IMG/VR virus record: IMGVR_UViG_3300049460_000128
Location: 1 to 64,000 of that record
Strand: one strand, 5' to 3'
Source of the DNA: a virus
Length of the DNA: 64,000 bases
The notes under the pieces were generated by a model. That model had not been told where the DNA came from. It saw nothing but the letters and a program-made list of their open reading frames with translations, and searched no databases. This document shows positions 6,189 to 13,280 of this stretch, piece by piece. Within the stretch, counting starts at the first letter, position 1; every line of letters starts with the position of its first letter. The position numbers and the translations under genes are program-made.

Positions 6189-6247
6189 ACAAGTGTCTCC
6201 TGTTATTTTCCACCAATATAGCATGATATGGTATTTAGAAGACAAAT

Positions 6248-6275
6248 AAAAAAGCCCGCCGAAGCGAGCTTTTTT
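6248..6275 (-). terminator. Terminator of the tmRNA operon
   Basis: GCTCGC-TTCG-GCGGGC stem flanked by A and T runs. It works for the leftward tmRNA transcript and could also act rightward. Confidence 0.85.
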
Positions 6276-6660
6276 GAGACTTGGATGATGAGGTATGTCT
6301 CTACCCCCACCGTTTAGGCTGCTACAGCCTGACGGAACGAAGAATCGTTTGCATTTACAACGTGCCGACTTTTATTTTCGTGAATCATCGACTTTCACGT
6401 GTTGTCATCTTCGGCTTATTCACCCTGTCGAAACCAGGTCAGGCCCATCATATAAGATTCTCTCGCTTACGTCTCGCGGGATACTGCGCTTTATCCTGAT
6501 AGTGGCCAGCGAAGTTTATCATGCGCTGCTGGTCTAACCTACCGAAAATCTATATGGTGGACCTGTGGGGAATCGAACCCCAGTCCAGAATGCCTCTACG
6601 TCCAAATCTGTCAGTTGCCTGACCACAACAATGTAATGCGCCTATCAGGCGGGGTAAGCC
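6270..6660 (-). ncRNA. ssrA: Circularly permuted (two-piece) tmRNA
   Basis: The tmRNA halves occur in reversed order on the leftward strand. First comes the acceptor piece: T-arm TGGGG-TTCGATT-CCCCA, acceptor strand CAGGTCC (6565-6559), A73 and an encoded CCA ending at 6555. After a 108-nt linker comes the mature 5' end GGGCCTG (6446-6440), which pairs with CAGGTCC over 7 bp (one G-U), followed by the tmRNA signature CCTGGTTTCGACAGGG. The tag frame GCA AAC GAT ... GCC TAA (6352-6314) encodes ANDSSFRQAVAA. The linker ends pair (ATATAGATT with AATCT-ATAT), as expected of a precursor cut to give two pieces. The upstream limit of the acceptor piece (here 6660) is uncertain. tmRNA with SmpB rescues stalled ribosomes and tags products for proteolysis. 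Confidence 0.9.
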
Positions 6661-10451: not shown

Positions 10452-10626
10452 GCACCCCGGGTGGAATCGAACCACCGACCCTTCGATTAAATATCGACCG
10501 CTCTATCGTCAAAACTATTCAACAGGTCAACAGCGGGACGTCACTCGCTATCTTGCTGTCTAGCCGTTTATTCAATTCCACCGGCGACCGTCGTCACCTT
10601 ATGTGGTACCTCTGAGCTACGGGGCA
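10452..10626 (-). ncRNA. tRNA-like RNA with a large insertion in the D-loop
   Basis: Canonical parts: acceptor TGCCCCG/CGGGGTG, U8-A9 (TA), D-stem GCTC/GAGC, a 17-nt anticodon arm, 5-nt variable loop GGGTC, and T-arm GGTGG-TTCGATT-CCACC. Between AGAGGTA and GATAGAGC the D-loop holds roughly 100 extra nt with its own hairpin (GGTGAC-GACG-GTCGCC). The anticodon loop reads TATTTAA: position 33 is A not U, and 34-36 would be TTT. No CCA is encoded. It is therefore unlikely to be a normal tRNA-Lys; a tRNA-shaped RNA of other function is more likely. Confidence 0.6.
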
Positions 10627-10665
10627 TTGCTTGGTTAAAAGATGATTGCTCATCTCTTGAATTCT

Positions 10666-10826
10666 TGGCGTCAACTGCCGGATTCGAACCGGACGACGGA
10701 ATACACTTTTGACCTCTATGAGGCGGGTATGCCCTTACTTTCACCGTTAGGCTGTCCACTTCTGCCCATGCCATTCAGCAAAGACATATCTGCGGCGTTC
10801 GTTCTGCCAGACTGAACTAAGTCAAC
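10666..10826 (-). ncRNA. tRNA-like RNA with insertion between D-arm and T-arm, encoded CCA
   Basis: Acceptor GTTGACT (10826-10820) pairs with AGTTGAC (10676-10670) over 7 bp, then G73 and CCA (10668-10666). TA at 8-9, a perfect D-arm GTTC-AGTCTGGCA-GAAC, and T-loop TTCGAAT on a CCGG/CCGG stem are present. The D-arm to T-arm distance is about 105 nt instead of about 23. A CTCATAG segment inside resembles a Met anticodon loop but lacks a stem. Charging and anticodon are undetermined. Confidence 0.6.
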
Positions 10827-10828
10827 AA

Positions 10829-10933
10829 GTATGGCGGGGAATTGAACCTCCAGTCCAAAATGAGCAGCACCATGGCGCCGTTTCACTTGGCCCTAGTTTC
10901 CTAGGCTGCTTCCCAAAGCAGCGTCGACCATAC
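10829..10933 (-). ncRNA. tRNA-like RNA without recognisable D or anticodon arm
   Basis: GTATGGT (10933-10927) pairs fully with GCCATAC (10835-10829). Just inside the 3' strand is a T-loop TTCAATT on an imperfect GAGG/CCCC stem, preceded by TTTTGGAC, the spacing seen in tmRNA acceptor pieces. The rest is two hairpins, GCTGCTT-TGGG-AAGCAGC and CCTAG-GAAA-CTAGG. No anticodon and no encoded CCA. Confidence 0.45.
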
Positions 10934-11087: not shown

Positions 11088-11933
11088 TCACTTGCGGGGT
11101 TTCTTTATTGCACTGAAAAGTAGCATCAATGCAACACCGGTAAGGAACATCACCCAACTTTCAGGCTCTGGAACAGGAGTCGTAATGGGTGGAGTGACGA
11201 TTGGCGGAACAATCGGTGGAGTAATTACAATGCAGCAACCACCGCCACCACCACCGCCATTGTCGATCGGGCTCCACGGAGTGAATCCGTGCCAACCGTT
11301 ACCGCCAGGATTCACCAATGAATTGTTGGGCTCACCTGAGCCAGTAGTGATACTCCCTGGGGCAACATTTGACGCACCACCACCCCCGCCTCCGCCACCA
11401 CCTTCAGTTGGTTCTGCGGGTTGTTCAGCTTGTGCTTGAGCAACTTCAGCAGTTTCACCACCACCTTTATGTGAACCAGTAGTTACCTGGGTTTCCGGCA
11501 ACCGCTTCACACGGCTGATATTTTGGCAAATAGTTGGTACCAGGATACAAGTTTCGCCCTCGCAGTACACCAATGCTTCCTCTTTACGAGTGGGTGACCA
11601 TTTGTCACGAGTTGTTGCCAGACAGATTTGCGGCTTAGCACTCTTGCCACCAAAGTGCATATCGGTGATGGTCGACTCATATGCGTGGATGCCAGTAATT
11701 CGATCTTTCGTGATGGTCACGACTTCATCGAACTGCTTTTTCTCCAAACGCTGTTTGAACTTAGCCCGCAGTTCAGGCGAAAGATCACGATAATGATCAA
11801 TCGCATTCGAGACGGCGCCCTTGTAGGGATTGACACCTGGGTTGTCCCACGAACAGGTGTCAAGTATTACCGCTTGGGAACTGGCCATGGTCCCCAGGAA
11901 CAAAAGTCCCATCAATGCCTTAAAAAGTTTCAT
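11088..11933 (-). CDS. MHFG-type PEP-CTERM secreted protein
   Basis: A 281-residue protein. The ATG at 11933 follows ribosome binding site GAGGAATTGTAT; the frame could extend two codons to a TTG. Residues 1-21 are a Sec signal peptide (MKLFKALMGLLFLGTMASSQA). The mature part has ITDMHFGGKSAKPQICL, WSPTRKEEALVYCEGETCIL and a Cys pattern recalling the MHFG family of Oxalobacteraceae. Two poly-Gly tracts follow. The C-terminus VPEPESWVMFLTGVALMLLF plus KKPRK is a PEP-CTERM sorting signal for exosortase/EpsH. Such proteins are bacterial surface or biofilm proteins; on a phage it looks like cargo taken from the host. MHFG assignment is from memory of the family. Confidence 0.85.
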   Translation of the reverse strand: MKLFKALMGLLFLGTMASSQAVILDTCSWDNPGVNPYKGAVSNAIDHYRDLSPELRAKFKQRLEKKQFDEVVTITKDRITGIHAYESTITDMHFGGKSAKPQICLATTRDKWSPTRKEEALVYCEGETCILVPTICQNISRVKRLPETQVTTGSHKGGGETAEVAQAQAEQPAEPTEGGGGGGGGGASNVAPGSITTGSGEPNNSLVNPGGNGWHGFTPWSPIDNGGGGGGGCCIVITPPIVPPIVTPPITTPVPEPESWVMFLTGVALMLLFSAIKKPRK

Positions 11934-12040
11934 ATACAATTCCTCAATTGGTTGCCCTATATATCATATGGCGCAATCGAATGGTATATTAAAATTATGC
12001 TAATTCATAAAACCAAATCATCAACTATTTGATATTTGCC

Positions 12041-12555: not shown

Positions 12556-12709
12556 TGGTGGCGAGAGGAGGGGTCGAACCTCCAATGTGCTACACATTGA
12601 CAAATATGCGTGCTCGAGGATCCGGATCCAATTGGCCGCCCTACACTCGTCAACTTAGAACACTCTCCAGCTCATCGGCTGGCGTATCTACCAATTCTAC
12701 TACCCCGCC
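12556..12709 (-). ncRNA. Leu-tRNA-like RNA with extra arm, encoded CCA
   Basis: 5' part is Leu-type: acceptor GGCGGGG, TA, D-stem GTA/TAC with loop GAATTGGTAGA, G26, CCAGC. 3' part: a long variable hairpin AATGTG-TAG-CACATT, T-arm GGAGG-TTCGACC-CCTCC, acceptor TCTCGCC (7 pairs, two G-U), A73, CCA. The anticodon arm closes on a 6-nt loop CGATGA (CCAGC/GCTGG), so no normal anticodon exists. About 60 extra nt follow it, closed by TTGAC/GTCAA. Length 154 nt versus about 87 for tRNA-Leu. Confidence 0.6.
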
Positions 12710-12712
12710 TAA

Positions 12713-13062
12713 AATGTAATGGTGGATGACCGTTGGTGTGCTATTACGCCCAATGCTCAACGGGTCTTGTACGACATCGCGCTTACTCTAATCCCTTTAC
12801 CCTCAGCGCTTACCTAGGGGCCGTTATCCTTCGGCATCCTGTAGTCATGGGCTACGCCCCATAACATGATGACCAATTTCCTGCCAGCTGGGAAATTGTT
12901 GCCATCTTATCGTACAAACTGTACTTGTCCTTCCCCGGTGGATTATGCGCGATGATTGCCACCATCTGAAGCTGGGATCGCTTCCGCCCTTATCCACTTT
13001 GCAACTCTTTAAAGGATGGCTGCTTCTAAGCCCACCTTCCAAAAGTCATCCACCATTACATT
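12713..13062 (-). ncRNA. RNA mimicking the GTPase-associated centre of 23S rRNA
   Basis: Closed by an 18-bp perfect stem (12713-12730 with 13045-13062). Next to it lies the core of 23S helices 42-44 (E. coli about 1051-1108). UUGG/CCAA replaces CCAG/CUGG of H42. H43 carries GGCUUAGAAGCAGCCAUC (13032-13015), identical to E. coli, then UUUAAAGA. H44 carries GCGUAAUAGC (12749-12740) with hexaloop GUAAUA. Pair 1058-1080 changes U-A to G-C and 1056-1082 changes G-U to A-U, so pairing is kept while sequence changes. Some 250 nt of other hairpins (GTGGAT/ATCCAC, AATTTCC/GGAAATT, ATGGG/CCCAT) are inserted in the 5' strand of H44. In ribosomes this domain binds uL11 and contacts EF-G, EF-Tu and RelA. 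A decoy or scaffold role is inference. Confidence 0.8.
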
Positions 13063-13063
13063 C

Positions 13064-13280
13064 ATGTGCTTTGTTGGGCACCATCCGCCACCCCCATCGG
13101 GTCAGCATCCACAGCGGGATTACTAGGGACTCGAACCCTTCTTCGCTTGACTGTACGGGCCAAGCTAGTACGCTATCATGAACCATCTGCATCACTTACC
13201 GCGAATAGGCGATGTTTCCCGTTCATGCTTCCCAAATTAATGGTTTTTCACGTAGACGACTGATGTCCAACAAAGCACAT
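13064..13280 (-). ncRNA. Structured RNA with T-loop, first segment of the rRNA-mimic operon
   Basis: Closed by a perfect 14-bp stem (13064-13077 with 13267-13280). Inside are GCTTG/CAAGC, an AGGG-TTCGAGT-CCCT T-loop hairpin, and the string CTAGTAATC, which also occurs in 16S rRNA near position 1340. It begins at the predicted transcription start and abuts the GTPase-centre mimic. Confidence 0.6.

Follow-up and report, generated by a model that had tools for sequence, protein, structure and literature searches.

What would a phage do with a protein that carries the sorting signal of a bacterial surface pathway? Published work links PEP-CTERM proteins with the genes for exosortase and exopolysaccharide (PMC1569441), and the pathway brings them to the cell surface or into the matrix, where they work together with exopolysaccharide (PMC1569441, PMC9850573). 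The window, the whole stretch of DNA analysed here, comprises the first 64 kb of a virus record of 296,594 bases (296.6 kb), and a first-pass annotation had placed a PEP-CTERM protein of the MHFG family at positions 11088-11933. This locus is almost certainly a genuine phage-borne MHFG protein gene, and we assign a probability of about 0.6 to the reading that it encodes a phage-made substrate of the host exosortase, which alters the envelope of the infected cell.

The gene, its product, and its surroundings

The open reading frame lies on the minus strand (11088-11933), extending from an ATG at 11933 to a stop codon ending at 11088, and encodes a product of 281 amino acids; a Shine–Dalgarno-like GAGGAA sequence (11940-11945) precedes the ATG by 6 nt on the same strand. 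The protein consists of four parts, all encoded on the minus strand: a predicted Sec signal peptide, MKLFKALMGLLFLGTMASSQA (residues 1-21; 11871-11933), a conserved core domain of 122 amino acids delimited by alignment and AlphaFold2 (residues 25-146; 11496-11861), a poorly conserved, low-complexity Gly/Pro linker recognised from sequence and alignment (residues 147-253; 11175-11495), and a tripartite PEP-CTERM sorting signal, VPEPESWVMFLTGVALMLLFSAIKKPRK (residues 254-281; 11091-11174), located by a borderline PF07589 match and hydropathy. The signal peptide, predicted from sequence and hydropathy only, contains a KxxK n-region, a hydrophobic core, and an AxA-like end, with a hydropathy of 2.03. 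The C-terminus, PVPEPESWVMFLTGVALMLLFSAIKKPRK, combines the VPEPESW motif, a transmembrane helix with a hydropathy of 2.33, and a basic KKPRK end, so that the PEP motif, the hydrophobic helix, and the C-terminal basic cluster are all present and the VPEPESWVMFL...KKPRK architecture of the first-pass annotation, with its signal peptide, is seen where it was described. A lipoprotein with a conserved cysteine in a lipobox was ruled out, as there is no consistent lipobox.

The assignment to the MHFG family of PEP-CTERM proteins holds in HMM searches. NF038119 (NCBIfam, MHFG family PEP-CTERM, an equivalog) matches residues 26-274 of the translated frame with 218 bits (E 2.7e-64) against a curated cut-off of 100 bits, and the match spans model positions 2-255 of 260. 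On the window protein, the generic PEP-CTERM models, which span 24 residues, give borderline scores: PF07589 (Pfam; cut-off 20.7) scores 20.9 bits in a six-frame search, at 11115-11177, its sole match in the 296.6-kb record, and 16.4 bits on the called 281-residue protein, while TIGR02595 scores 15.1 bits (cut-off 16). Borderline scores are frequent with short models. The NF038119 family model is decisive, and its full-length match excludes chance.

The MHFG motif resides within the sequence ...ITDMHFGGK..., and alignments place the CxWDxPG motif, the MHFG motif, and the five-cysteine pattern in the core of the window protein. Across 64 aligned viral and cellular core sequences, 13 columns are invariant, five of which are cysteines. 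AlphaFold2 modelling of the core on this 64-sequence alignment (pLDDT 91.1, pTM 0.83) predicts a fold of two helices and six main strands. Structure searches of the core by Foldseek (best E 0.23 in the PDB and 0.085 in BFVD) and VIA-align (best Z 2.5), and sequence comparisons with PHROGs, Pfam, PADLOC, and the PDB, returned nothing meaningful; the modelled fold is confident, yet resembles nothing known in the libraries searched.

The source record is a T4-like jumbo phage. Its T4-type terminase is 62% identical to that of Sinorhizobium phage Phosso and 48% identical to those of PA5oct-like jumbo phages, and the other hallmark genes in the window encode UvsX, a replicative helicase, a UvsW-like helicase, a single-stranded DNA-binding protein, NrdA (ribonucleotide reductase), and a sigma factor. 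The third-position GC content (GC3) of the MHFG gene is 0.46, within the range of the other genes of the phage (0.49 +/- 0.05), and the gene therefore looks settled in this genome.

Several RNA elements lie near the gene. A split mimic of the GTPase-associated centre of 23S rRNA (helices 43-44) occurs on the minus strand at 12730-13050; one half is GGAAGGTGGGCTTAGAAGCAGCCATCCTTTAAAGAGT (about 13003-13040), and the other, TTGGGCGTAATAGCACAC (12736-12753), follows after some 250 nt. At least 119 stretches of viral-contig sequence contain the 18-mer GGCTTAGAAGCAGCCATC of the mimic, and none of the 82 copies read continues into 23S rRNA. Among 55 distinct copies, one stem pair appears as GC, TA, AT, and CG and is paired in 53; the second half lies within 450 nt in 35, and tRNA genes are close by in many. 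Rfam 15 gives only sub-threshold LSU matches to the mimic, and a literature search found no paper on a phage mimic of the 23S GTPase centre. The element appears to be a phage RNA that is widespread and has not been described, and it could act as a decoy for ribosomal protein L11 or for translation factors. ARAGORN left uncalled several tRNA-like sequences, at 10460-10517, 10660-10770, 10829-10933, 12559-12709 (minus strand), and about 13109-13140 (minus strand); the copy at 12559-12709 scores 31.5 bits as a tRNA and carries an insert of about 80 nt between the anticodon arm and the T arm.

MHFG genes in phages and bacteria

Searches of viral and bacterial collections with the window protein alone gave no match because its core is divergent, and relatives were recovered by a degenerate DNA motif and afterwards by an alignment-based scan. 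The motif, derived from WDxPG...MHFG, identified 14 viral contigs, each encoding an MHFG protein, and all 14 phage MHFG proteins tested pass the curated cut-off of NF038119. The alignment-based scan extended the set to 21 distinct viral sequences, comprising the window and 20 other IMG/VR records. Carrier size varies from 7.7 kb, for a contig, to 350 and 369 kb, for jumbo phages that possess terminases of their own, and small tailed phages carry the gene as well; in the loci checked, it has terminase, tail, tape-measure, primase, or polymerase genes nearby. MHFG is present on unrelated phage types, and was found neither in a collection of 50,697 isolate-phage records nor in a plasmid collection.

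At least 154 bacterial loci encode MHFG relatives. The 80 that were listed are almost all from Burkholderiales, mostly Sphaerotilaceae (Roseateles, Rubrivivax, and Paucibacter, among the matches listed) with some Oxalobacteraceae, one metagenome-assembled genome (MAG) labelled Methylotenera, and a few that bear a broader name only; Aquincola also carries the gene. Two tandem MHFG genes are present on a betaproteobacterial MAG contig (L154, 8509-9767). A prophage origin of the cellular copies was ruled out by neighbours, named from their sequences, such as uvrA, purB, pyrF, and lipB. These copies are ordinary chromosomal genes of Burkholderiales, and none of the chromosomal neighbour families conserved around them appears at the viral loci. 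In an even sample of 300 Burkholderiales genomes, only the seed genome has MHFG over the cut-off, which indicates that the family is patchy.

The cellular distribution bears on the likely host. An Oxalobacteraceae-like host had been proposed; Oxalobacteraceae do carry MHFG, but that proposal is too narrow, as the cellular genes are mostly from Sphaerotilaceae. A permuted tmRNA of betaproteobacterial type (6223-6647, minus strand; tag ANDSSFRQAVAA), adjoining the sigma factor gene, points to a betaproteobacterial host, and the closest protein by identity among the matches listed is that of a Rubrivivax MAG (53%). A host within Burkholderiales, or another betaproteobacterium, fits the window phage.

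The dependence on a host exosortase that the first-pass annotation had put forward gains support from the distribution of the enzyme. Of 25 bacterial genomes with MHFG, all but one, a MAG, encode the PF09721 exosortase (24 of 25), against a base rate of 111/300 in the order sample; a plain binomial comparison gives p of about 7e-10, a value that ignores relatedness and rests on searches with differing E-value limits. The 296.6-kb record of the window has no exosortase, PF09721 has no match in any of ten phage records, and an alignment scan of viral contigs, sensitive only to fairly close relatives and run without a positive control in that collection, returned no relative.

In a tree of 116 columns, 68 chromosomal sequences group together (support 84/89), and many viral sequences lie on long branches outside this group. 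The viral labels require 7 changes (5-8 over bootstraps), compared with 19.4 for shuffled labels. The tree does not support several separate captures as proven, since a single viral clade is not rejected (AU p 0.225). These long branches and label changes make a long residence of the gene in phages probable. In close phage pairs, the dN and dS values of the core (0.048/0.401, 0.072/0.479, 0.091/0.394, and 0.053/0.238) correspond to dN/dS of about 0.12-0.23, which indicates purifying selection.

These results weigh on two explanations in which the gene has no role in infection. It is improbable that the gene is a host gene acquired by accident and left unused, as the ordinary chromosomal setting of the cellular copies and the lack of an isolate phage with MHFG would allow, given its presence in many unrelated phage lineages, the selection on its core, the greater divergence of the viral sequences relative to the chromosomal clade, and its phage-like GC3. 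That the viral record is a chimeric assembly or contains host contamination is extremely improbable: the record is metagenomic and has no isolate counterpart, but phage genes are spread throughout the window, the neighbours of MHFG are phage-like in many other records, and the viral loci lack both the conserved chromosomal neighbours and, in the contigs scanned, an exosortase.

A probable phage-made substrate for the host exosortase

The preferred reading, a phage-made exosortase substrate, would operate as follows. The MHFG protein would be made during infection and exported through Sec, and its cysteine-rich core would fold in the periplasm, while the C-terminal helix would hold the protein with its PEP motif on the outer side of the inner membrane. 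The host exosortase would cut the protein there, and the exopolysaccharide machinery would move it to the cell surface or into the matrix, where the core domain would alter the envelope of the infected cell. Processing of the phage protein by the host exosortase is the likelier part of this scheme and is, in our judgement, quite probable. The most likely effects would be the exclusion of other phages or the retention of matrix polymers at the cell, and a surface effect of this superinfection or matrix kind is possible at somewhat less than even odds. The first-pass annotation had raised a coat on the infected cell, a block on superinfection, and a change of biofilm as roles that such a protein might have.

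The sorting signal is well kept among the phage copies: 18 of 21 have a literal PEP motif in their last 38 residues, and all 21 have a C-terminal hydrophobic helix. The PEP motif is degenerate in at least two copies (VPDIPTW and VPELPS), and five of the 21 proteins begin at or beside M(I/L)xACSWD with no hydrophobic N-terminus (L134, 9230-9919; L135, 9709-10350; L136, 13168-13821; L137, 9438-10100; and L236, near 10000); a sixth record is incomplete. These five start 3-5 residues ahead of CSWD and keep the core and the C-terminal helix. The missing signal peptides and degenerate motifs suggest that sorting may be lost in some lineages. Such copies fit the substrate reading poorly, and could be derelict, take another route, or have a core that acts elsewhere. 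They are what would be expected if the core acted in the periplasm or at the inner membrane, with the C-terminal helix as a mere anchor and exosortase incidental, an explanation that we regard as unlikely in view of the prevalence of the literal PEP motif and the helix and of the way the family tracks exosortase-bearing genomes.

PEP-CTERM genes of other kinds also occur in viral contigs; their recurrence in many phages, like that of MHFG, was not part of the first-pass annotation. The strict motif VPEPxTWA is found in at least 120 stretches, and 68 of the matches listed are credible in frame, helix, basic residues, and end. Among the few read together with their neighbours, some reside in phage modules, for instance L320 between head-tail genes, L260 close to a terminase-like gene, and L280 close to a lysis-type gene, with neighbour identities read from sequence; some of the others may be host DNA flanking prophages. 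Two jumbo phages with MHFG carry further PEP-CTERM genes: the 350-kb G013 has a second one directly before MHFG, and the 369-kb G006 has two more away from it. Sequence likewise names several further genes: a papain-like cysteine protease gene beside a tandem PEP-CTERM pair in G006 (L117, 622-2496, minus strand), NAMPT-like and NAD-kinase-like genes flanking both PEP-CTERM genes of G013 (L124, 6684-8171 and 10142-10984), and a LOV/PAS histidine kinase gene with a GRNCRFLQ motif (L138, 13744-15273, minus strand) in the 416-kb jumbo phage G018, whose terminase shares 54% identity with its counterpart in the window phage. No NCBIfam model matched the second PEP-CTERM-like gene of G018 (L138, 15870-16754), and a C-terminal match in another record, G011 (L114), was set aside, with no convincing protein in the frame examined.

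The unrelated mature domains of these phage proteins have only the PEP-CTERM signal in common, and the window phage keeps an intact sorting signal with no enzyme of its own. Both observations would also suit a decoy, in which the phage protein is abundant enough to occupy the host exosortase fully; host PEP-CTERM proteins would then not be displayed and the matrix would loosen, which would help virions to exit or to reach new cells. A pure decoy would have no need of a core with 13 invariant columns under purifying selection, and some phage copies with a degraded signal retain that core; we consider this explanation decidedly unlikely.

Relation to known systems and significance

The MHFG family is known in bacteria, and what is new is its phage setting, with a broad pattern behind it. 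The window protein resembles the chromosomal NF038119 family of Burkholderiales in its full-length match, its CSWDxPG...MHFG core with five invariant cysteines, its linker, and its PEP-CTERM end. It differs in being phage-encoded, in its Gly-rich linker, its long branch, and the absence of an exosortase from its own genome, and its core is at most 53% identical to cellular MHFG cores among the matches listed. It shares the PEP motif, transmembrane helix, basic end, and signal peptide with the PEP-CTERM/EpsH system of Haft et al. 2006 (PMC1569441); here, however, substrate and enzyme belong to different organisms, and the 2006 paper is silent on phages. A PEP-CTERM protein of Aquincola increases bound polymer, decreases released polymer, and restores floc formation (PMC9850573). 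This floc-forming PepA is alike in sorting signal and predicted destination, whereas its mature domain is unrelated, and the floc_PepA model NF033554 is absent from the matches of the window protein. The possible purpose is shared with the general class of phage surface changes that exclude other phages (PMC7824862); that jumbo-phage overview, like further jumbo-phage papers, names no exosortase substrate. Searches of the open literature turned up no publication in which a phage encodes PEP-CTERM proteins or makes use of exosortase, and no experiments on any phage PEP-CTERM protein.

The occurrence of such genes in many unrelated phages suggests that the exosortase pathway serves phages to dress or alter the surface of infected cells. 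A wider proposal is more tentative, with the odds rather against it: phages of exosortase-bearing bacteria would systematically carry PEP-CTERM genes without the enzyme, and recoat or reprogramme the infected-cell surface by the host route. If true, this would be a previously undescribed route of host takeover, and MHFG would be a form of it common to many unrelated phages. PEP-CTERM proteins act in the floc formation and exopolysaccharide binding of environmental bacteria, and if phages supply substrates for the exosortase, infection in activated sludge and freshwater could alter how cells aggregate and how readily phages gain access to them. The phage genes would then be small natural probes of a sorting system most of whose substrates have no known function, and would also act as a host filter, since such a gene predicts that the phage infects a host with an exosortase.
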